From contig NZ_FNTA01000004.1 in the NCBI RefSeq assembly GCF_900105055.1, positions 7,223,501 to 7,287,500 on the forward strand: a DNA stretch of 64,000 bases, in the 5' to 3' direction. This stretch comes from Amycolatopsis lurida. Its GTDB lineage: Bacteria > Actinomycetota > Actinomycetes > Mycobacteriales > Pseudonocardiaceae. A program made the position numbers and the translations under genes. Positions 50,997 through 62,085 of the stretch are shown piece by piece (position 1 is the stretch's first letter; every line of letters begins with the position of its first letter). Under the pieces are notes generated by a model, which had not been told where the DNA came from, ran no database searches, and was given only the letters and a program-made list of their open reading frames with translations.

Positions 50997-51938
50997 TCAG
51001 AGGGGCCAGCGGGCGCGGACGATTCCGTCGTCGTCCGGTCGCACGGCCACGAGCAGTGGGTTGTGGCCGTCGGTGGTGTGCGGCAGGAGGATGGCCGCGC
51101 GTGCGCCGGCGAACGCTTCGGCCAGGCACGCTCGGTCATCGCTGTCGGCGTGGAAGCCGTGGATGCGGCCGTCCGCGTGCTTCAGGACGGCCCAGCCGGC
51201 GAAGTCCGGCGTAATCGTGCGTAGCACCGCTGGAACGTCTGTGGACAGGTCCGGCCACACGTTCAGCAGGGCGCGCGGTCCGAGGTCGGGCACGGCGTCG
51301 GCGGTGAGCAGATGCCAGCGGGAGAGATTGGCGACGACCTGTTCTTCCAAGAGGAGCCTGCCGTGCTGTGCCAGGAGTGCCGCCACCTCGGCCCAGAACG
51401 CCGCGTCGGCCGGAACCGTTTCGTACGGTCCGTCGGCCGGGGCGTAGGGCGAGGCGTCCAGGGGCTCGACGAACAACCCGCTCGCGGTGGTCAGCGTGAC
51501 CGCGTGTCCGCACGGTTGCTCGCTTCCGATGTACATGTACTGGTCGTAGCCGATGTGGACGAAGAACCGGTCTTCGGTCTCGAGCCGGCACCACGCGCCG
51601 TTGTCGCGCAGCATGACGCGCACCAGCTCACGCCCGACGTCCAGGGTGATCCGCGCGCCGTCGTGGTAGCCGGTGAGGTCGGCGGGGAACAGTCCGTGCA
51701 GTCCGTCGCCGTCGACGGGCGGCTCTGCTCCGAAGTGGACGAATCCATGGACCTCGGGGTCGCGGATGGTCAGCCGGGTCACGCCGGTGTCTTCGGCGAA
51801 GGCCGTCACGGCGGCGAGGTAGGCGGCCTCCACCGGACCGTGGTCGCTCGACACGTCCTCGGAACCGCGGTACGCGCCCCACTCGTCGCGATCGGCCGGG
51901 TCGTACTTGGTGATCCGGTAGACGTACGACGCGCTCAT
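50997..51938 (-). CDS. Conserved actinobacterial hypothetical protein
   Basis: A 313-residue soluble protein with the pattern YVYRITKYDPADRD, EDVSSDHGPVEAAYLAAVTA, DPEVHGFVHFGAEPPVDGDG, ELVRVMLRDNGAWCRLE and DQYMYIGSEQPC. I know this order from a family widespread in streptomycetes and relatives, but with no assigned function. No signal peptide or catalytic motif. It stands alone upstream (in strand sense) of nothing related. Confidence 0.78.
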   Translation of the reverse strand: MSASYVYRITKYDPADRDEWGAYRGSEDVSSDHGPVEAAYLAAVTAFAEDTGVTRLTIRDPEVHGFVHFGAEPPVDGDGLHGLFPADLTGYHDGARITLDVGRELVRVMLRDNGAWCRLETEDRFFVHIGYDQYMYIGSEQPCGHAVTLTTASGLFVEPLDASPYAPADGPYETVPADAAFWAEVAALLAQHGRLLLEEQVVANLSRWHLLTADAVPDLGPRALLNVWPDLSTDVPAVLRTITPDFAGWAVLKHADGRIHGFHADSDDRACLAEAFAGARAAILLPHTTDGHNPLLVAVRPDDDGIVRARWPL

Positions 51939-52116: not shown

Positions 52117-53544
52117 CTAGGCTGACGGCCACTGGGCGGTGAGCCGTTCCACCGCCGCCTCGATGTTGACCGCACCGGCTCCATAGGTCCGGATGCTGGC
52201 TTCGACCCGCGGAGTCACGTCGTCCGGCATGCCGACGGCCACCACGATCGCGTCGGGCCGGGCGGTCAGGGCCTCGGCCAGCCGGGCCGCTTGCCAAGGG
52301 GTCCGGTAAGCGTCCCTCACCACCAGCACCACCGGGCCGGTCGACGGCAAGACCACCGGGTCGTCTTCGGCGGCGAGCACCGCCGAGTGGGCAGCGCCGA
52401 GTTCGGTCAGCCGGTCGGCGAGGCTCCAGTGGGCCTCGCCCAGCGCGTTGCCGCCGGCGCGCAGTTCGACCACGAAGGCGGGAGCGGTCAACGCGACCGG
52501 TCCGTGGACGCGCAGCGCGCGCCGCGCGGCCTCGAGCCCGAGATCGCGCGGAGCGGCCAGAGCGCGCAGAGTGGAAACTCGCGTGGCCGCGGTTTCCAGT
52601 GTCTCCAAAGAAAGTGTGCCGGCGCGGACTGCTTCGGAGACCGACGCGCGGATGACCGCGCAGAGCTCCTCACCCTCGGTCGGGCCGAGCAGCAGCAGAT
52701 CCGATCCCGCCCGCAGGGCACGGACGGCCACCGCGCCGATGTCCTGGTTGCCTTGGCCCGCTTCGATGGCGATCGCGCTGGACAGCAGCACACCTTCATA
52801 GCCCAGCTCGTCGCGGACGAGGTCGTGGAGCAGGCGGCGGCTCAGCGTCGCCGGGTTGTCCGGGTCCAGTGCGGGATAGAGCACGTGGGCGGTCATCATC
52901 GCGTGGACGCCCGCCTTGATCGCCGACACGAACGGCGCCAGCTCGCGCTCGCGGAACGTCGCATCCGGAATGTCCACAATGGGCAATGCGTGGTGCGGGT
53001 CGGTCACCGTCGCGCCGTGGCCGGGAAAGTGCTTGGCGCAGACGGACACGCCACCGTCCTGCATGGACTCGATGAACGCAGCGCCGTGTGAAGCGACCAG
53101 ATCCGGCCGGGCGCCGAAGGACCGGACGCCGATGATCGGGTTGTCGGGATCGCTGTTGACGTCGATCGACGGGGCCAGGTTGAGGTTGACGCCGCAGGCC
53201 TTCAGATCCGCCGCGATGGCCGCGGCGACCTCGGCGGTCAGCGTCAGGTCGTCGATCTCGCCGAGCGCCAGGTTGCCCGGATACGCGCTGCCGGTTTCGT
53301 AGTCGAGGCGGGTGACGTCGCCGCCCTCCTCGTCCAGCGCGATCAGCGCGTCGGGCGCCGTCCGCCGTAGCGCGCGGGTGTGCCGGACGATCGCTTGCCT
53401 GCCACCGTCCAGATTGGCCGGGAACAGGGTGACCCCGGCGAGCCCGTCATCGAGCGCCGAATGCACCCAGGCCGGCGGTGCGGCCCCGGTGTACCCGGCG
53501 AGCAGGCAGGCGTTGACGAGCCGGTCCAACTCATTCACCGACAA
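52117..53544 (-). CDS. GH3-family protein lacking the catalytic nucleophile
   Basis: A 475-residue protein with the NagZ-like glycoside hydrolase 3 barrel: ALDEEGGDVTRL (70-80), KHFPGHGATVTDPHHALP (171-188, with the His of the acid/base loop), AHVLYPALDP and a C-terminal second domain. In NagZ the nucleophile Asp stands in an SD pair of the GVxxSDxL motif; here the motif is GVLLSSAIAI with Ser256 at that place. The protein may bind rather than cut N-acetylglucosamine-type sugars, or use another residue. It is the last gene of the nine-gene operon, overlapping the HAD gene by 14 bp. Confidence 0.85.
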   Translation of the reverse strand: MSVNELDRLVNACLLAGYTGAAPPAWVHSALDDGLAGVTLFPANLDGGRQAIVRHTRALRRTAPDALIALDEEGGDVTRLDYETGSAYPGNLALGEIDDLTLTAEVAAAIAADLKACGVNLNLAPSIDVNSDPDNPIIGVRSFGARPDLVASHGAAFIESMQDGGVSVCAKHFPGHGATVTDPHHALPIVDIPDATFRERELAPFVSAIKAGVHAMMTAHVLYPALDPDNPATLSRRLLHDLVRDELGYEGVLLSSAIAIEAGQGNQDIGAVAVRALRAGSDLLLLGPTEGEELCAVIRASVSEAVRAGTLSLETLETAATRVSTLRALAAPRDLGLEAARRALRVHGPVALTAPAFVVELRAGGNALGEAHWSLADRLTELGAAHSAVLAAEDDPVVLPSTGPVVLVVRDAYRTPWQAARLAEALTARPDAIVVAVGMPDDVTPRVEASIRTYGAGAVNIEAAVERLTAQWPSA

Positions 53545-54346
53545 CGGAGTTCTCCTTCGCGTAGAGCTGTTCGAGTACGACGGCGACGCCGTCTTCGCTG
53601 TTGCTGCCGATCACGTGGTCCACCAGTGCGAGCACGTCGGGATGAGCGTTGGCCACGCCGTACGCCGTACCTGCCCAGGACAGCATCGGCAGGTCGTTGG
53701 GCATGTCACCGAACGCGATCACGTCCGAGGCCGCCACCCCGCTCCGCGCGGCCAGCCGGGCCAGCGCGGCCGCCTTGTTCACGCCGATCGCGATCGCTTC
53801 GACCAGGCGTGAGCCGTTGGAGTGGTACGCGGCGACGAGCCCCTCCAAGGCCGGCTTGGCCAGCGCGAGGAGTTCGTCGGCGGACAGCGAGGGGTGCCTG
53901 CCGAGCAGCTTCGGCGCGGGCAGGCTCAGCAGCGTCGCGTCGTCGGCGCGTTCGATCGTGGCGCCGCGGTCCCATTCCCACGGCTCGTAAACCGAGTCCG
54001 CGACCAACCGGTCGGCGTGCTCCACGGCGATACCGATGCCGGGGATCGCCGCCCGCAGCCTGGCGACCGCTTCGGCCAGATCCGGGGTCGTGATGGCGTA
54101 TTCCTCGACGACCGTCCTGGTGTGCATGTCGTACAGGTAGGCGCCATTGGAGCAGATCGCGAGGCCCCGGTCACCGAATCGGCCGGCGATCTCCGCCACC
54201 AGCCGCGGTGGGCGGCCGGTGGCGACCACGAATTCGGCGCCCGATTCTTCGACGAGCGCGAACGCCGACACCGTGCGGTCGGAGATCGTGCCGTCCGGGC
54301 GTACCACCGTGCCGTCGAGATCCGTCGCCACCAGCAAGGGCGTCAT
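53531..54346 (-). CDS. HAD-superfamily phosphatase (Cof type)
   Basis: A 271-residue HAD-IIB phosphatase: motif I LLVATDLDGTVV (Asp8/Asp10 region), VVATGRPPR (motif II Thr), late NKAAALARLA (Lys) and motif IV FGDMPNDLPML. Such enzymes remove phosphate from sugar phosphates or nucleotides. ATG 54346 overlaps the glycosyltransferase stop (ATGA); the longer frame is a shadow. In this operon it may dephosphorylate a sugar intermediate. Confidence 0.88.
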   Translation of the reverse strand: MTPLLVATDLDGTVVRPDGTISDRTVSAFALVEESGAEFVVATGRPPRLVAEIAGRFGDRGLAICSNGAYLYDMHTRTVVEEYAITTPDLAEAVARLRAAIPGIGIAVEHADRLVADSVYEPWEWDRGATIERADDATLLSLPAPKLLGRHPSLSADELLALAKPALEGLVAAYHSNGSRLVEAIAIGVNKAAALARLAARSGVAASDVIAFGDMPNDLPMLSWAGTAYGVANAHPDVLALVDHVIGSNSEDGVAVVLEQLYAKENSVVGE

Positions 54347-56124
54347 GGAATCAATCCTTCGTCCGAGAACAATCCGGTCCAGGCGTCCCGGCTGGTCAGC
54401 CGCGGCAGCGCCGCGCGGTACCGCTCGCGGACGGCGGCGCCGTCGCGGATGAACCGGGTGAGCACTCGGGCGCCCTGGTACGCCAGCCGGACCAGGTGAG
54501 CCCGGTCGTACGTGCGGACGCGGACACCTCGTTGCGACGCGTCGGTCACCACCGCCGTGCGCAGCGCGCCGACCCGCCACCAGTCGGCCTCCGAAACCGG
54601 CACGGAGCCCAGGGCGAGCCGGTGCACGCCGAGCAACGGCCCGAGTGCCAGCCGGTCGAAGACACTCGGTTCGCTGATCGCGATGTCGTTCGACGCGAGC
54701 CCCGGGACGGCCGTCGGTGGATGCGCGACGGTCTCCGGATGGCGGGAACGCACCTCGCGGATCCGCGCCAGCGCCGCGACCCCGCCATCGCGCAGGATGT
54801 CCGGCCCGTCGAGAAAGTCCGACACCGCTTGGATCAGGGTCGCCGCGGCGCCGTATCGCATGCCCAGCAGCGAGGGGATCAGCTCGGCGAGCAGGGTTCC
54901 GGCGATCTTCAGCACCGGGAAATCGCCGTGCAGCGCCGAGATGATCGTGTAGTTGCGCAGGATGAAGTACCGATTGAGCTCGTCGGAGTCCTTCCACGGG
55001 AAGTCGGTGTGCCACAGGCCCGCGCCCGGCAGTGTCACCGTCGGGAATCCGTGTGCCCGTGCCCGGTAGGAGTACTCGGCGTCGTCACCCTGGAAGAAGA
55101 GGGGGAGCGGATAGCCGGTCTCCTTGACCACCTCGTACGGGATCAGGCACGCCCACCAGCCGTTGTAACCCGCGTCGACGCGGAACTCCTGCCGGTACGG
55201 CCTGCCGGTGGCCGGATCCGTGGCCAGCAGGTCGACCGCGTGCAGGCTGTGCCGGATCGGCATGCCCGGCCGGATGCCGTCCAGGTCGGTGTACTCGGCC
55301 GCCGCGTGCAACCGCGTGGGGTGCAGCAGGTTCAGCATCTGGCCGCCGAGGATCAGCGGTTCCGCCGTGGACGCCGAAAACGCCGTCATCCGGACGAGCA
55401 GGTCGGGTTCCAGCACGATGTCGTCGTCCATGAACAGCATGTTCACGTTCTCGCCGTCGACCTCGTACAGGCCGCGCGTGAAACCGCCCGCGCCACCCAG
55501 GTTCGGCTGCCGCAGGTACCGCAGCTTGCCCGGCGGCAGAACGCCCTCGGCCGGCACCGGGTCGGTGCCCTGATCGACGACGTACACGGCGTGCACCGTG
55601 GCCTGCGCCAAGTCGTCATCGGCGATCGCGGTCAGCGTGGCGAGGCAGTCGGCCGGGCGGTTCATCGTGCAGATGGTCACCACCGTCGGCCGTGACCGCT
55701 CCGCCGCCGGAACCGTCCAGCGCACGTCGCGGACGACAAGCCGTTGGCCCGGTTCGGTTTCCCAGTCCAGCCACAACGCGCCGCCGTCGACGAACCGGTC
55801 GAGGGGGGCGACCAGCGAGATCGGCCCGCCGTCCACCACCCGCGCCGCCACCACGCGCGGCTCGCCCTCGAAGTCCGACGCCAGCAGGGAAACCGTGCCG
55901 GAACCAGCGGCCTCCAGTCCGACCTCGACGACGCCGGCCGTCGTCCAGCGCTGCCAGTAGCTGGCCGGGAACCGTCCGAAGTACGTGTTGCCGGAGACCT
56001 TCGACGCGGATTCGAGGGTGAGTGTGGTCCGCTCGCGGCGAGCGCCGCCCGAGACGACCTGAACGTAGAGATCCTTGCCGATCACCCCATCGGGCCCGGC
56101 GAACAGCCCGCGCTGCGCGATCAC
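54343..56124 (-). CDS. GT2 glycosyltransferase, GlfT2-like
   Basis: A 593-residue transferase starting at the GTG that overlaps the upstream stop. Residues about 1-145 form a beta-rich front domain (GNTYFGRFPASYWQRWTTAG). The GT-A domain follows: VVTICTMNRPADC, the DxD motif in MLFMDDDIVL, YNGWWACLIPYEVV, FFQGDDAEYSYRARAHGFPT and the LWHTDFPWKD His. This order matches GlfT2, the galactofuranosyltransferase of mycobacterial cell-wall galactan. Whether the donor is UDP-galactofuranose here is not known; the setting with Dcd-like and AurF-like genes is unlike a galactan locus. Confidence 0.85.
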   Translation of the reverse strand: MIAQRGLFAGPDGVIGKDLYVQVVSGGARRERTTLTLESASKVSGNTYFGRFPASYWQRWTTAGVVEVGLEAAGSGTVSLLASDFEGEPRVVAARVVDGGPISLVAPLDRFVDGGALWLDWETEPGQRLVVRDVRWTVPAAERSRPTVVTICTMNRPADCLATLTAIADDDLAQATVHAVYVVDQGTDPVPAEGVLPPGKLRYLRQPNLGGAGGFTRGLYEVDGENVNMLFMDDDIVLEPDLLVRMTAFSASTAEPLILGGQMLNLLHPTRLHAAAEYTDLDGIRPGMPIRHSLHAVDLLATDPATGRPYRQEFRVDAGYNGWWACLIPYEVVKETGYPLPLFFQGDDAEYSYRARAHGFPTVTLPGAGLWHTDFPWKDSDELNRYFILRNYTIISALHGDFPVLKIAGTLLAELIPSLLGMRYGAAATLIQAVSDFLDGPDILRDGGVAALARIREVRSRHPETVAHPPTAVPGLASNDIAISEPSVFDRLALGPLLGVHRLALGSVPVSEADWWRVGALRTAVVTDASQRGVRVRTYDRAHLVRLAYQGARVLTRFIRDGAAVRERYRAALPRLTSRDAWTGLFSDEGLIP

Positions 56125-57191
56125 CGGCACACCTCGGCGGTCACGGCCGCCAGGCCTGCGGCGGTCCCGGACAGCGGGAACCGGGCCGCGTTGCGCAGTC
56201 CGGCCGCACGCAGGTCCGTCAACGCGCTGTCGTCCTTGGCCAGGAGACGGACGGTGTCCGCGAGCGTGGACCGGGTGAACCGCAGCGCCGAATCGCCCAG
56301 CACCTCGGTCAACCCCGGCACCGGCTGATACGCCACCGGCAACCCGCAGGCCTGCGCCTCGACCGCGACGAGCCCGAACGCTTCCAACGTCGTCGACGGC
56401 ATCACGAGCAGGTCGTGCCGCGCGAAGGCCTGCCACAACGCGGGGCGGTCGAACCAGCCGAGGTAGTCGACTTGAGTCGTGTCCACCGGTAGTGCGGCGA
56501 ACTCGTGCTCGGGAGCCGCGACGCACAACGTCACGCCGGGCAGCCCCGTCAGGTCCGCGATCAGCTCGGCCGCCCCCTTCTCCGCGGTCAGCCGCCCGGC
56601 GTACAGCACCCGGAAGCCGTCCCGCGTCCCGGGCCGCGGCGGCGGCGAGTGCAGCAGCCGATCGGGGATTCCCCATGGCACGTGCACGATCCGCTTCGGT
56701 TCGACCGGCGTGACCTCGCGCAGGAGGCCGGCCATCGCCGAGGTCGGCACGACGACCGCGCCTGTCGACGCGGCGGCTTCGCGCAGCACGTCACGCTGGG
56801 TGGGATGCTCGGCCGCGAAGAGCAGATCGGTGCCGTGCACCAGGGCGATCCGCGGATGGTCCGGGAACGCACGGAGCAACGCGGGCGTGGCACCGAAACT
56901 CAAGTGCTGCCAATGCACCGCGTCGAAATCGGCCGGATCGAACCGACGTCGGATCGCGGTCGCCAACGCGTCCACATAGGACCAGAATCCCGGACCGTCG
57001 AGCTGCTTTCCCGGCACGTCGAGCAGGTGCGGCCCGCCGGGCTGCGCGCCGGAGCCGAGCATGAAGACGTCGGCCGCGATCGGCGCTTCCGGCGCGAGGT
57101 AGAGATCCTTGAGGAGCTCGACGCTCCCGCCGGGGCTGCCCGGCGGGAGGTCGATCCCGGTCAGTGTCTTCGGTGTCTTCGGTGTCTTCAC
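56121..57191 (-). CDS. GT4-family glycosyltransferase
   Basis: A 356-residue GT-B enzyme. The N-terminal half has GSPGGSVELLKDL (acceptor/nucleotide loop); the C-terminal half has VLYAGRLTAEKGA, DYLGWFDR and the donor site STTLEAFGLVAVEAQACGLP with the E-x7-E pattern. The first ten residues (KTPKTPKT) come from a 9-bp tandem repeat, so the start may be variable. It overlaps both neighbours by 4 bp and probably adds the first or second sugar of the product. Confidence 0.87.
   Translation of the reverse strand: MKTPKTPKTLTGIDLPPGSPGGSVELLKDLYLAPEAPIAADVFMLGSGAQPGGPHLLDVPGKQLDGPGFWSYVDALATAIRRRFDPADFDAVHWQHLSFGATPALLRAFPDHPRIALVHGTDLLFAAEHPTQRDVLREAAASTGAVVVPTSAMAGLLREVTPVEPKRIVHVPWGIPDRLLHSPPPRPGTRDGFRVLYAGRLTAEKGAAELIADLTGLPGVTLCVAAPEHEFAALPVDTTQVDYLGWFDRPALWQAFARHDLLVMPSTTLEAFGLVAVEAQACGLPVAYQPVPGLTEVLGDSALRFTRSTLADTVRLLAKDDSALTDLRAAGLRNAARFPLSGTAAGLAAVTAEVCR
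57166..57189. repeat. 9-bp tandem repeat at the start of the GT4 gene
   Basis: The unit GTCTTCGGT is present 2.7 times. It encodes the KTP repeats at the N-terminus of the glycosyltransferase. Because the unit is a multiple of three, changes in copy number would not shift the frame. Confidence 0.7.
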
Positions 57192-57712
57192 GACAGTTCC
57201 TCGTACAGCCGGGAAATGTCGATACCGGACGTGCTCGTGTACTTCACGCCGACGTGCTGATAGCTCGCCAGGGACCCGTGCGCGACCAGGAAGATGATCT
57301 TGCCGAAGGTCATCAGCGGATAGACCCGGACCGGCCTGGCCACCCTGATCTCCAGCGTCCAGTTGATCGCGTGGCCGACGTGCCCGAGCGGCGCCGAGAC
57401 ATGGACCCAGATACCGAGCCCGCCGATCGTGTGGTCACCGTTGATCATCTGCGCGTAGCGCTCGGAACGTGTCCGCTCGTGGGTGACACCGAGGTACAGC
57501 CGCCCCGGCTCGAGCACCAGCCCCTCGGGCGGGATGACGAGTTCGGTGAACGGGGTCGACCTCGCCGCGTCCAGCTCCGTGTCGAAGACGCGCATCTTCT
57601 CGCCGAGGCGCCAGTCGTACGCGTTGGGCGACAACCGGTCCGGCTCGAACGGGTCGATCACGATGTCCCCGCTCTCCAGTGCCTTCTCGATCGCCTTGCG
57701 GGTGAGGATCAC
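57188..57712 (-). CDS. Dcd/dUTPase-like protein A (has catalytic Glu, lacks RSS motif)
   Basis: A 174-residue protein of the dCTP deaminase fold: ILTRKAIEKALESGDIVIDP, then LSPNAYDWRLG and late WTLEIRVARPVRVY. Glu121 in INWTLEI aligns with the catalytic Glu138 of E. coli Dcd. The other conserved element, the RSS loop of the neighbouring subunit (GRSSxxRxG), is replaced by GDHTIGGLG (92-100). GTG 57712 overlaps the stop of the second Dcd-like gene (GTGA), so both are made in step. Alone it should be inactive; a shared active site with protein B is a testable idea. Confidence 0.85.
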   Translation of the reverse strand: MILTRKAIEKALESGDIVIDPFEPDRLSPNAYDWRLGEKMRVFDTELDAARSTPFTELVIPPEGLVLEPGRLYLGVTHERTRSERYAQMINGDHTIGGLGIWVHVSAPLGHVGHAINWTLEIRVARPVRVYPLMTFGKIIFLVAHGSLASYQHVGVKYTSTSGIDISRLYEELS

Positions 57713-58239
57713 GACGTGACCGCCACCCGGTCGCGCCAATAGCGGGATTCTTGCGGGCCGACCGCCGACTGGTACTTCCCCGCGTAGAGATCGATCTCAC
57801 CGGAGGACACGAAGAACATGATCTGGCCGATCTTCATGCCGTGGTAGACCCGCAACGGCTGCACGGGGGAGAGCATGAGCGTCCACTGGCCGTGGAAACC
57901 GATGTCCCCGATCGGTGCGGTGATCTCGACGAACAGCCCGAGCCTGCCGACCGAGGACCGGCCGAACAGCAGCGGCACGTAGATGTCCGAGCCGATGCGC
58001 TCCTCGGTGTGCCCGAGATAGAGCTGGTCGGGCTGGAGCACGTACCCGTCCTCGGGCAGCTGGATCGTCTCGGTCGGGTTCGGGTGGTAGGCGTCGACGA
58101 CCTTGTCCCGATAGGACATCAGCGTGCCGCCGAGCTTGACGTTGTAGCTGTTCGGGTTGACCTGGTCCGGGCTGAACGGGGAGATCGCGATCCGGCCGTC
58201 GGTCACCGACTCGGTGATCTCGGGCCCGGTCAGGATCAT
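57709..58239 (-). CDS. Dcd/dUTPase-like protein B (has RSS motif, lacks catalytic Glu)
   Basis: A 176-residue Dcd-fold protein: MILTGPEITESVTDGRIAIS, NPNSYNVKLG, then GRSSVGRLGLFVEITA (93-108) with Arg94, Ser95, Ser96 and Arg99 as in active deaminases. The position of the catalytic Glu holds Met122 (GQWTLMLS). It lies directly in front of the partner gene and overlaps the AurF-like gene by 4 bp. Dcd enzymes are trimers with sites between subunits, one side giving the RSS loop and the other the Glu, so A and B have complementary defects. Confidence 0.87.
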   Translation of the reverse strand: MILTGPEITESVTDGRIAISPFSPDQVNPNSYNVKLGGTLMSYRDKVVDAYHPNPTETIQLPEDGYVLQPDQLYLGHTEERIGSDIYVPLLFGRSSVGRLGLFVEITAPIGDIGFHGQWTLMLSPVQPLRVYHGMKIGQIMFFVSSGEIDLYAGKYQSAVGPQESRYWRDRVAVTS

Positions 58240-59204
58240 TTGACGCCGCCCTTGGCCGTCACGAAGTGATACTTCACCTTGTCTTCGATCCCGAGGTCCC
58301 GCAGCAGCCGGTGCACCGTGGCGAAGTCGTTCATCATGACTTCGCCGTCCTCCTTGGCTCGGCAGTCGGCGATGATCTCGTCGACGTGCTCGATACCGGC
58401 GAACCGGAGCACCTGCGGCCACAGCTCGTAGTCCTCGGCGCCGAACGCGGTGATCGCCTCGGGGAGGTACCGGATGAAGAACTCCTGCCGCTCCGGCTCC
58501 AGTTTCGGGTAGATCTCCTTCATCAGTTCGGCCAGCACGGGACCGTGCGCCGCCTCGTCGCGGGCGTGCAGCCGGGCGATGAGCGCGTGCATCGGCTGGA
58601 TGGACTTGTCGCCGGCCAGCAGGTCGAGGAAGGCGTTGATGCTGACCTCGCCGACGACCGTCCACATGAGATAGAGCAGATCGCGCTGCCACTGCTCGTC
58701 CATGCTCTCCGCGAGCGCGTAGAGCCTGCGGTTCGTCACCGGCTCCACAAAGGACTCTTCGAGACCGATCCCGCGTGCCTCACGGGTGCGCTGCATCGCC
58801 ATCATGTGCATGTAGGTGTGCCACACCTCGTCGATATGGGACTGCTGGACGACTTCCTTGACCTCGTAGCGGTCGACACCGGGGAAGACGCCGTGCGCGA
58901 GCTTCTCGAAGGTCGGGTTCGCCACGTGTTCCTCGGCGGCGATGACGCGCTCGTTGTAGGCGATCCACGCCAGCGTGTTGACGAGCAGCCGCTGCTCGTC
59001 CGACGCTTCGAGGAACCGCGGGTGCTCCGAGAACGGCATGAGGTGCAGCGGGTAGTCCAGCAGGCTGGGATCGTATTCGCCGGGGTTGACCACTCCGGCC
59101 ATGTCGGTGCGGATGGTCGCGCGCTTGGGCCAGGCCGCTGCCAGCCTGCGCAGCATGCTCGGTCCGACGTGGGTCTCCGCAAGCTCGATGGGATGCATCG
59201 TCAT
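58236..59204 (-). CDS. AurF/CmlI-type diiron N-oxygenase
   Basis: A 322-residue helical diiron protein. The seven ligands of AurF (Glu101, Glu136, His139, Glu196, His223, Glu227, His230) reappear with identical spacing as Glu91, Glu126, His129 (EVWH), Glu186 (VVGEVS), His213, Glu217 and His220 (HARDEAAH). AurF-type enzymes turn amines into hydroxylamines, nitroso or nitro groups with oxygen. ATG 59204 overlaps the deacetylase stop; ATG 59198 is an alternative. In this operon an amine freed by the deacetylase would be a natural substrate; that is inference. Confidence 0.9.
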   Translation of the reverse strand: MTMHPIELAETHVGPSMLRRLAAAWPKRATIRTDMAGVVNPGEYDPSLLDYPLHLMPFSEHPRFLEASDEQRLLVNTLAWIAYNERVIAAEEHVANPTFEKLAHGVFPGVDRYEVKEVVQQSHIDEVWHTYMHMMAMQRTREARGIGLEESFVEPVTNRRLYALAESMDEQWQRDLLYLMWTVVGEVSINAFLDLLAGDKSIQPMHALIARLHARDEAAHGPVLAELMKEIYPKLEPERQEFFIRYLPEAITAFGAEDYELWPQVLRFAGIEHVDEIIADCRAKEDGEVMMNDFATVHRLLRDLGIEDKVKYHFVTAKGGVK

Positions 59205-60271
59205 CTCTCTCCTGTCGCGAAGTTCGGGGTCACCAGGTCTTCGACGCGGACGAACTCGAGTCCGCGGGCCAGTAGTCCTTCGATCACCGACGGCAAGGCG
59301 GTGACGGTCTGGGAACGGTCGCCGCCACCGTCGTGCATCAGCACGATCGAGCCGGGAATCGTTTGCCGCAGCACGGTTCGCGCGATCACCTCCGGGCCGG
59401 GCATCGCCCAGTCCTCGGTGTCGACGTCCCACAGCGCGAGCCGCGCGCCGAGGTCCGTCAGCGAGCGGAGCACCGCGGGGGTCCGTGATCCGTAGGGCGG
59501 GCGGAAGAACGCGGGCACGGCGCCGAAAGCGTCCGCGATCACGTCGCCGGTCCGGTTGAGCTGGTCGGCCAGCTCCGTCGCCGAGAGATCCGGAAGATAG
59601 GGATGGGACCACGTGTGATTGCCGACGCCATGGCCCTGTTCCGCCATCCGCCGCAGATCTTCGCCGCGCGCGCCCGCGTTCAGCCCGACACAGAAGAAGG
59701 TGGCGCGGACCCCGTAGGACTCGAGAATGTCGAGGATCCGCCCGGTGTACGGAGGATGCGGGCCGTCGTCGAACGTGAGCGCGATCTGCCCGCGGGTCCG
59801 GTCGCCGTGCTCCAGTGAGCGCCCGGCCGCGGTCATCGCGGCCAGCGCTTCGTCGCTGGAGGCCATCGCCGCGTGATGTTCGTCCAGCCGCCCGGTGAGC
59901 GAACCCGACTCGATCTTCAAGCGCACCAACGAGCCGGGATCTCGCCACGCCGCGCGCGCCAGCTCGACGGCGGGCACCGAGCCGAAACCCGGCCTCGGCG
60001 GCAGGATGGCCGGGTCGGCGCGGTACATGTCCAGGCCGGCGGCCATGAAACCGCCGTCGAGCATGCCGTTGGTGCTGTCGACGACCGCGGTCACCGAGCG
60101 GCCGAGGCCGTTCAGATAGGACGCGATCTCCTTGCTCCGGTCCGCGGCGAACCGCACGGCCGGCCGGTCACCGTGCCCGTTCCCGTCGAGGACCGCGATC
60201 TCGAAACCCGAGGCGGTCCAGCCGATTCCGGCGTACAGCATCGATTTACCCCCATGGTGCGTGTCACTCAA
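59201..60271 (-). CDS. NodB polysaccharide deacetylase with RNase-H-like front domain
   Basis: A 356-residue protein. Residues about 162-345 are a complete NodB domain: LTFDDGPHP (Asp168/169), NHTWSHP (His219, His223), FRPPYG, WDVDTEDW and VLMHDG. These zinc enzymes deacetylate N-acetylglucosamine-type residues. Residues about 11-110 (LYAGIGWTASGFEIAVLDGN, TAVVDSTNGMLDGGFMAAGL) resemble the RNase-H-like start of IS110 transposases, but with Gly in place of the first catalytic Asp (YAGIGW for YAGIDW). No signal peptide is seen, so it acts in the cytoplasm. It overlaps both neighbours by 4 bp. Confidence 0.85.
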   Translation of the reverse strand: MSDTHHGGKSMLYAGIGWTASGFEIAVLDGNGHGDRPAVRFAADRSKEIASYLNGLGRSVTAVVDSTNGMLDGGFMAAGLDMYRADPAILPPRPGFGSVPAVELARAAWRDPGSLVRLKIESGSLTGRLDEHHAAMASSDEALAAMTAAGRSLEHGDRTRGQIALTFDDGPHPPYTGRILDILESYGVRATFFCVGLNAGARGEDLRRMAEQGHGVGNHTWSHPYLPDLSATELADQLNRTGDVIADAFGAVPAFFRPPYGSRTPAVLRSLTDLGARLALWDVDTEDWAMPGPEVIARTVLRQTIPGSIVLMHDGGGDRSQTVTALPSVIEGLLARGLEFVRVEDLVTPNFATGER

Positions 60272-61473
60272 TCCAGTCCGGCTGTGGTGAGGTGCCTGGC
60301 GGTCGCCCGCCGGACGACGACCGGTCCGGCGATGGCGATCACCGCCGCGAGCAGGCCGGGTACCACCATGGCGGTGCCCAGCGAGGTGGCGTCGGCGAGC
60401 GGGCCGATGACCGCGGGCCCGCCGAGCTGCCCGGCGTAGGCCATGGTGGTCACCCAGGAAAGCGCGCGCCCGACGTTCGCGCCACCCGCGCCGACGGCGC
60501 TGAAGATCGCCGGTACGACGGTCGCCAGACCGGCCGCCACGACCACCCAGCCGACCAGGCCGAAAGCCAGCCGTGCCCCGGGAAGCAGCGGCGCGACGAG
60601 AACGAGCGCGTACCCCAGCACGGCGACCGATCCCGCGTACCGCATCCAGCTCGCCGGGTTCACCTTCGACCGGATCCGGTCGGCGGTGAGCCGGGAAACG
60701 GTCAGCGCGGCGGCGAACGCCGTGTACGCGAACGACGCCGTCGCCGGATCCGCGCCGAGCATTCCTTGCGCGTGCAGGGAAGCCCAGCTGTAACCGGCGC
60801 CCTCGCTGACGAAACCGGCCAGTGCGACCAAGCCGAGCAGCATGATGGTGCTCGTCGGCAGCCCGGCGGAAGAGACGACCGGGTCATCCGTCACCTCGCC
60901 TTGTGTCTTGCCGGTCAGCAAATGCTTGCCGGGCAAGAGAAACAGTGCTGCCGCGACCACACCGGCGCCGACCATCAGCGCCGGGCCACCCGTTTCGAGA
61001 TGCAGGCCGATGGTGATCGTGAGGCCGCCGGCCACTCCTCCCAGGCTCCACACCCCGTGGAACGCCGACATGATCGAGCGTCCGTAGCGGGTTTCCACCT
61101 CGACCGCGTGGCCGTTCATCGCGACGTCCAAGGAGCCGAGCGCACCGCCGAGCACGAACGCGGCGACCAGCAGTACCGGAAAATTCGGGGCCAGCGCGGG
61201 GCCGAGCAGCGTGAGCGCCGCGACGGGCGCGATCACCCGTAACACCGCGCGGCTCGACCAGGCGTCGGCCAGCCGCCCGGCCACCGGCATGCAGGCCATC
61301 GAGCCGAGCGCGGTGCTCAGCAGGACCAGCCCGATCCGGCCTTCGCCGAGGTGGAGCCGGGCGTTGATCGACGGCAGTGACGCGCTCCAGACGGCGCAGA
61401 TCAAGCCGCAGAGCCCGAAAACGCCCATCACGGCCAATCTGGCGCGACGAACGGCGGGCTCGGGACGCGTCAC
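60268..61473 (-). CDS. MFS transporter, first gene of the nine-gene operon
   Basis: A 401-residue major facilitator with about twelve helices: VFGLCGLICAVWSASLPSIN, LADAWSSRAVLRV (loop 2-3 motif), GALGSLDVAMNGHAVEVE and FHGVWSLGGVAGG, a pattern like the FucP/YbjJ-type group. It starts at GTG 61473 behind GAAGGAAG and overlaps the deacetylase gene by 4 bp. It is the first gene after the operator at 61592 and could export the product or import a sugar precursor. Confidence 0.87.
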   Translation of the reverse strand: MTRPEPAVRRARLAVMGVFGLCGLICAVWSASLPSINARLHLGEGRIGLVLLSTALGSMACMPVAGRLADAWSSRAVLRVIAPVAALTLLGPALAPNFPVLLVAAFVLGGALGSLDVAMNGHAVEVETRYGRSIMSAFHGVWSLGGVAGGLTITIGLHLETGGPALMVGAGVVAAALFLLPGKHLLTGKTQGEVTDDPVVSSAGLPTSTIMLLGLVALAGFVSEGAGYSWASLHAQGMLGADPATASFAYTAFAAALTVSRLTADRIRSKVNPASWMRYAGSVAVLGYALVLVAPLLPGARLAFGLVGWVVVAAGLATVVPAIFSAVGAGGANVGRALSWVTTMAYAGQLGGPAVIGPLADATSLGTAMVVPGLLAAVIAIAGPVVVRRATARHLTTAGLD

Positions 61474-61653: not shown

Positions 61654-62085
61654 TCACCGTTCGAGCGGCGTCGCGAGCAGGGCGCGCACGGCCGCCAGCT
61701 CGTCGTCACCTTTCACCGAGGCGACCCAAGGCCTCGTCAAATGATCACCCGCCCTCCTGGGCACCAGGTGGACATGAAGGTGGAAGACGTCCTGCCAGCC
61801 GGCGGATCGGTTGGCCTGGAACAAGGTCAATCCGTCCGGCCGCAGCACTTCGCGGATCCGGGCGGCCATCGAGTGGACGGTCCGCATGACGGCGGCCGCG
61901 CCCTCGGCGGAGATCTCCCAGATGTCGGCGGCATGGGCCCGGGGTATCACCAGGGTGTGTCCCGGCGTCACGGCGGTGTGGTCGAGGAACGCGATCGTGG
62001 TCTCGTCCTCGAACAGTACGCGCCCGGTGTCCTGCCGGCCGGCCGCGATCTCGCAGAAAACGCAAGCGGTGTCGGTTTCGTCCAT
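61654..62085 (-). CDS. HIT-family hydrolase
   Basis: A 143-residue histidine triad protein. CVFCEIAAG (zinc-type front), GHTLVIPRAHAADIW and the triad HLHVHLVPR (HxHxHxx) identify it. HIT proteins split nucleoside phosphoramidates or dinucleotides such as ApnA. It lies upstream of the nine-gene operon on the same strand but is separated from it by the operator, so it is probably separately expressed. Confidence 0.9.
   Translation of the reverse strand: MDETDTACVFCEIAAGRQDTGRVLFEDETTIAFLDHTAVTPGHTLVIPRAHAADIWEISAEGAAAVMRTVHSMAARIREVLRPDGLTLFQANRSAGWQDVFHLHVHLVPRRAGDHLTRPWVASVKGDDELAAVRALLATPLER

Follow-up and report, generated by a model that had tools for sequence, protein, structure and literature searches.

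An operon of Amycolatopsis lurida encodes a diiron enzyme of the AurF clade next to two dCTP-deaminase-like proteins, DCD1 and DCD2, each of which has lost catalytic motifs that the other keeps. We consider it reasonably probable that the AurF-type protein is a competent diiron N-oxygenase, acting as a tailoring enzyme on a secondary metabolite that is glycosylated and nucleotide-derived, via the route proposed below. The DCD pair with its reciprocal motif loss, absent from the earlier note on this window (the whole stretch of 64,000 nucleotides that was analysed), is the most unusual part of the locus.

The predicted AurF-type diiron N-oxygenase (58236..59204, minus strand) is an open frame of 322 aa. 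In an alignment with AurF (132 identities in 304 positions, 43%), its residues E91, E126, H129, E186, H213, E217 and H220 are in register, one to one, with the ligands E101, E136, H139, E196, H223, E227 and H230, and none of the seven varies across an alignment of 14 relatives. The AurF-like ligand spacing claimed in the earlier note thus holds at every position. The protein passes the cut-off of the Pfam AurF family (PF11583; 124.9 bits vs 29.6), and its best match among PDB sequences in phmmer is AurF (3chh/2jcd; 269 bits, E 4e-79), followed by CmlI (5hyg; 177 bits). The predicted structure (pLDDT 85) has the AurF/CmlI helical fold: it superposes on AurF 2jcd with a Z of 39.0 (rmsd 2.1 over 301) and on CmlI 5hyh with a Z of 37.6, far above the next fold, ribonucleotide reductase R2 (Z ~16). 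A dN/dS of 0.10-0.19 indicates purifying selection on the gene; against A. xylanica, the values are 0.095 for AurF, 0.071 for DCD1 and 0.028 for DCD2.

The phylogenetic placement that had been proposed as a check groups the window protein with AurF and two relatives of 51-52% identity, with CmlI apart; some inner branches have low support. AurF Tyr93 and Arg96, which contact the carboxylate of p-aminobenzoate, are kept in the window protein, and the CmlI branch does not keep both together. A CmlI-type identity was rejected on the tree position and Arg96. AurF Thr100 and Leu202 are replaced by Ala and Phe. The protein misses the cut-off of NF045603 (4-aminobenzoate N-oxygenase; 316 vs 620 bits), and annotation under that name is therefore unsuitable. 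On these comparisons, it is an AurF-clade enzyme, more than merely ferritin-like, and a new member of a family that is already known.

The same genome encodes four further PF11583 proteins (L001, L002, L003, L005) outside the AurF/CmlI clade, three of which score 333-363 bits. The relatives of 51-52% identity (L018 8710-10930, L028 8156-10452) mark two more N-oxygenase clusters of unassigned type; they adjoin class III aminotransferases and ATP-grasp ligases (Nonomuraea, genome G456). Elsewhere, a protein 85% identical to AurF (L029 9328-10242) adjoins a very long ORF, probably in an aureothin-type cluster.

The AurF-type gene is part of a tightly coupled operon, all on the minus strand, that spans window positions 52117-61473, plus a gene for an HIT-family nucleotide hydrolase/transferase with an HLHVH triad (61654..62085). 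The AurF blocks of Planotetraspora and of two Streptomyces have also kept the HIT gene. The operon starts with an MFS transporter (60268..61473), a candidate exporter by family match and conservation. It is followed by a polysaccharide-deacetylase-family protein (PDA; 59201..60271) with TFDDGP, HTWSH, RPPYG and LMH motifs and no N-terminal hydrophobic, signal-like stretch. For the first ~150 aa of PDA, which are conserved as far as Planotetraspora, there was no Pfam match; to the eye, this stretch looks RNase H-like. After AurF, DCD1 and DCD2 come a GT4 glycosyltransferase with an E-x7-E motif (56121..57191), whose best NCBIfam matches are weak and include several UDP-GlcNAc-using families (MshA, BshA, GlcN-PG synthase), and a GlfT2-like family 2 glycosyltransferase (54343..56124), found only in the Amycolatopsis versions of the block and given a GTG start on the basis of a GTGA overlap. 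A Cof-type HAD phosphatase (53531..54346) and a GH3-family beta-N-acetylhexosaminidase-like protein (52117..53544), all these assigned by family match, complete the set. Four-base stop/start overlaps link MFS/PDA, PDA/AurF, AurF/DCD1, DCD1/DCD2, DCD2/GT4, GT4/GlfT2 and GlfT2/HAD; the HAD/GH3 overlap is longer. In the GH3-like protein, the catalytic Asp nucleophile is replaced by Ser (VTDCLEM of 6k5j aligns with LSSAIAI), and the four orthologs in which the motif was read have Ser or Thr there; judging from these residues, the protein may not be a hydrolase.

The family search revealed no aminotransferase or ligase gene within the block, and the nearest gene for a chorismate-binding enzyme (PF00425) is ~276 kb from the AurF gene. 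The statement that no arylamine synthesis gene is nearby thus holds for the chorismate route, the conserved block bears out the description of the neighbours as sugar and nucleotide enzymes, and the block matches none of the known nitro-compound clusters found. Beyond the operon, the window encodes a 313-aa protein (50997-51938) that has no Pfam or NCBIfam match and is not conserved with the cluster.

The block is patchily distributed. Five of the 80 Amycolatopsis genomes, among them A. regifaucium, A. xylanica and that of the window itself, have a high-identity AurF gene, and the order HIT-MFS-PDA-AurF-DCD1-DCD2-GT4-GlfT2-HAD-GH3 is identical in the four other genomes. Planotetraspora carries PDA-AurF-DCD1-DCD2-GT4-GH3-HIT, with DCD1 (81%) and DCD2 (80%) best conserved and AurF at 68% identity. 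AurF-DCD1-DCD2-GT4-HIT is found in 2 of 295 Streptomyces genomes (genus assigned from their kinship group and from named plasmid records), both lacking PDA. In all eight orthologs of at least 60% identity (five Amycolatopsis, Planotetraspora, two Streptomyces), DCD1-DCD2-GT4 adjoin AurF, and no further strong AurF match emerged when 396 genomes of the phylum were surveyed.

The Streptomyces AurF cassettes adjoin genes for P450, O-methyltransferase, SagB-like, apparent YcaO and glycosyltransferase proteins. Near them, a small ORF ending AILCACCCSWCGC (L105 4727-5038; L106 16101-16500) precedes YcaO/SagB-like and deoxysugar genes and looks like a thiazole-peptide precursor. With YcaO and precursor assigned by reading the sequence, both loci are candidate clusters for a glycosylated thiazole peptide, with the AurF-DCD cassette inside.

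DCD1 (57709..58239, minus strand) and DCD2 (57188..57712, minus strand) were aligned with the M. tuberculosis enzyme (2qxx) and the genome's own housekeeping Dcd. DCD1 passes the TIGR02274 (dCTP deaminase) cut-off (96.2 vs 92.8 bits); DCD2 fails it (66.4 bits) and matches PF22769 (90.7 bits). DCD1 retains motif II (GRSSVGRLG) and motif IV (GMKIGQ). Its motif III reads TLML, with Met for the catalytic Glu, as in every type-A DCD1 read, and its motif I has Asn for Asp. DCD2 retains the motif III Glu, as TLE(I), its motif IV is degenerate, and its motif II is GDHTIGGLG instead of G-[RK]-S-S-x2-R, following G-[DN]-[HR]-[ST] in every type-A DCD2. This reciprocal loss is constant across all type-A pairs examined. 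Motifs II and III are both intact in two unpaired plasmid homologs (Paenibacillus, Aneurinibacillus) and in the housekeeping Dcd. Type B pairs (L095-L098) are again reciprocal, with Glu changed to Gln; in type C pairs (L052, L099, L116-L118), only one protein carries the Glu-to-Gln change, beside a complete partner. DCD1 and DCD2 have a dN/dS of 0.03-0.07 against A. xylanica and 0.24-0.30 against genome G033.

In trimeric dUTPases, two adjacent subunits build the active site together, one giving motif III and its neighbour motifs I, II and IV (PMC12524310). Because that site spans subunits, DCD1 and DCD2 are most simply read as partners in an obligate heteromer that has a single productive interface, and we infer from their motifs that the site is composite. 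Since motif I of DCD1 has Asn for Asp, this site may not carry out plain dCTP deamination. The structure model of DCD2 is weak (pLDDT 68) and its geometry not readable. An ordinary duplication of Dcd was rejected given the reciprocal loss and strong constraint. So was a phage origin of the pair, for which there was a single weak phage match, although one MurA-type cluster does lie on a Streptomyces plasmid. In one case (L097 4942-7446), a DCD domain is fused to a PPDK/PEP-utiliser ATP-binding domain, and the partner DCD is ~10 kb away.

DCD2 matches occur in 42 of 295 Streptomyces genomes, where pairs without AurF are far commoner; the AurF step is therefore optional to the DCD/GT4 core. The commonest Streptomyces type is MurA-like/metallophosphoesterase/DCD1/DCD2/GT4/serine hydrolase. 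It forms a highly conserved cluster (L049-L051, L087-L094, L100-L104, L114), plasmid-borne once, with genes for a flavoprotein, HTH regulator, HATPase, MurA-like protein, metallophosphoesterase, DCD1, DCD2, GT4 and serine hydrolase; it is not known to be tied to any product. A second type joins the DCD pair to a PIG-L de-N-acetylase, GT4, aaRS-like ligase, MurG-like protein, HIT protein, phosphodiesterase and an rRNA adenine methyltransferase-family gene. On a plasmid of Streptomyces NBC_00239 (L116 5864-15581), the pair accompanies TauD, PIG-L, WbqC, GT4, aaRS-like, MurG-like and HIT genes, and the methyltransferase-family gene is a candidate for self-resistance. By analogy, this gene hints at a ribosome-directed product, and the series of glycosyltransferase, deacetylase and ligase resembles mycothiol assembly.

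In the route we propose, whose steps may run in the order given, DCD1 and DCD2 would act as an obligate hetero-oligomer on a pyrimidine nucleotide, the catalytic Glu coming from DCD2 and the motifs for nucleotide/phosphate binding from DCD1. The GT4 protein would add a sugar, probably of GlcNAc type, to the DCD product, and the HIT and HAD proteins would strip nucleotide or phosphate groups. In Amycolatopsis and Planotetraspora, the deacetylase would free a sugar amine. AurF would oxidise an amine with O2 to a hydroxylamine, nitroso or nitro group, and the MFS protein would export the product. The cluster may thus make an N-oxidised nucleotide- or sugar-derived metabolite. A fuller reading, put forward tentatively, is that AurF N-oxidises an amino-sugar or nucleobase amine, and not an arylamine, in an antibiotic family of undescribed type with a core of a split heteromeric dCTP-deaminase-like enzyme and a GT4.

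N-oxygenases of the AurF/CmlI type characterised so far act mostly on arylamines. The amino sugar or nucleobase amine suggested as substrate in the earlier note fits the enzymes conserved around AurF (GT4, the dCTP-deaminase-like pair, HIT and a deacetylase-family protein in which the motifs of that family are present) and the series of GT4, PIG-L de-N-acetylase and aaRS-like ligase in a related cluster. It fits less well with the kept Tyr93 and Arg96, which are compatible with a carboxylated amine, including an arylamine, and with the two Streptomyces versions, which keep AurF without the deacetylase. A sugar amine gains from the pairing of GT4 with a deacetylase that has catalytic motifs and no signal-like N-terminus, and is weakened by these Streptomyces clusters, which also led us to drop the deacetylase as universal source of the amine. 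We modestly favour a sugar amine, with nucleobase amines and carboxylated amines as further candidates. Oxidation of an exocyclic nucleobase amine, e.g., that of a cytosine nucleotide on which the DCD pair acts, seems unlikely to us: AurF is directly coupled to DCD1, the AurF-DCD1-DCD2-GT4 core persists without the deacetylase and cytosine nucleotides are substrates of DCD-type enzymes, but the known substrate of AurF is small, and the occurrence of DCD pairs without AurF means that base chemistry and N-oxidation are not firmly linked.

The conservation of Tyr93 and Arg96 in the clade of the window protein and not in that of CmlI, together with the 43% identity to AurF, would suit p-aminobenzoate or another carboxylated arylamine drawn from general metabolism, as for AurF itself. 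We regard this as improbable, given the distance of ~276 kb to any chorismate-type gene, the score of 316 bits where the 4-aminobenzoate N-oxygenase model requires 620, the Ala and Phe at AurF positions Thr100 and Leu202, and the retention of Arg96 also in the relatives that adjoin class III aminotransferases. These nearest non-orthologous relatives (51-52%; Nonomuraea, G456), with their aminotransferases and ATP-grasp ligases, would fit an aliphatic amine, such as an amino acid, that is made elsewhere and joined later to the glycoside. Arg96 would suit its carboxylate, but with neither an aminotransferase nor a ligase gene in the window's block, we give this a low probability. Finally, the fold is catalytically versatile, and the protein could be a diiron oxidase that makes no N-oxide of the cluster metabolite, acting by C-oxidation or in the manner of DnfA. 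DnfA, described in a paper that also names AurF, converts hydroxylamine to N2 and offers a precedent for hydroxylamine oxidation (PMC9478400). The grouping with AurF and the full set of AurF ligands, including the seventh, make such an oxidase very unlikely.

If the natural substrate is indeed an amino sugar or nucleobase, the AurF/CmlI family would be widened, and there would be a route to sugars or nucleosides bearing a nitro, nitroso or hydroxylamino group. With the DCD1/DCD2 pair, the sharing of one active site between two coupled genes can be tested cleanly. The pair is also the hallmark of a family of nucleotide-linked biosynthetic clusters that about one in ten of the sampled Streptomyces genomes carry. 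We found neither this family nor the AurF block described in the literature searched, most subscription journals and MIBiG-type collections being outside its reach.

Compared with known systems, the window protein has the same seven ligands, fold and Tyr93/Arg96 as AurF, the p-aminobenzoate N-oxygenase of aureothin (2jcd/3chh), but it differs at pocket positions 100 and 202, and its block has no PKS and no PabAB-type gene. CmlI, the arylamine oxygenase of chloramphenicol (5hyg/5hyh), has the fold and ligands in common with it, and differs in its identity (31%), tree branch and lack of Arg96. The mycothiol route MshA-MshB-MshC follows a logic of GT4 and de-N-acetylase (plus ligase). The likeness, which is by analogy, extends to GT4 and de-N-acetylase, and to the aaRS-like ligase in related DCD-pair clusters, whereas the window's block has a deacetylase of another family, AurF, extra nucleotide enzymes and no ligase. 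DCD1 and DCD2 match the family of dCTP deaminases and bifunctional dCTP deaminase-dUTPases (TIGR02274; M. tuberculosis 2qxx), in contrast to which their catalytic motifs are divided reciprocally over two coupled genes. In the monomeric dUTPases of herpesviruses, complementary motif loss in duplicated units has left one composite active site (PMC12524310). The herpesvirus enzyme is one fused chain, whereas DCD1 and DCD2 are dCTP-deaminase-like and encoded by two translationally coupled bacterial genes.
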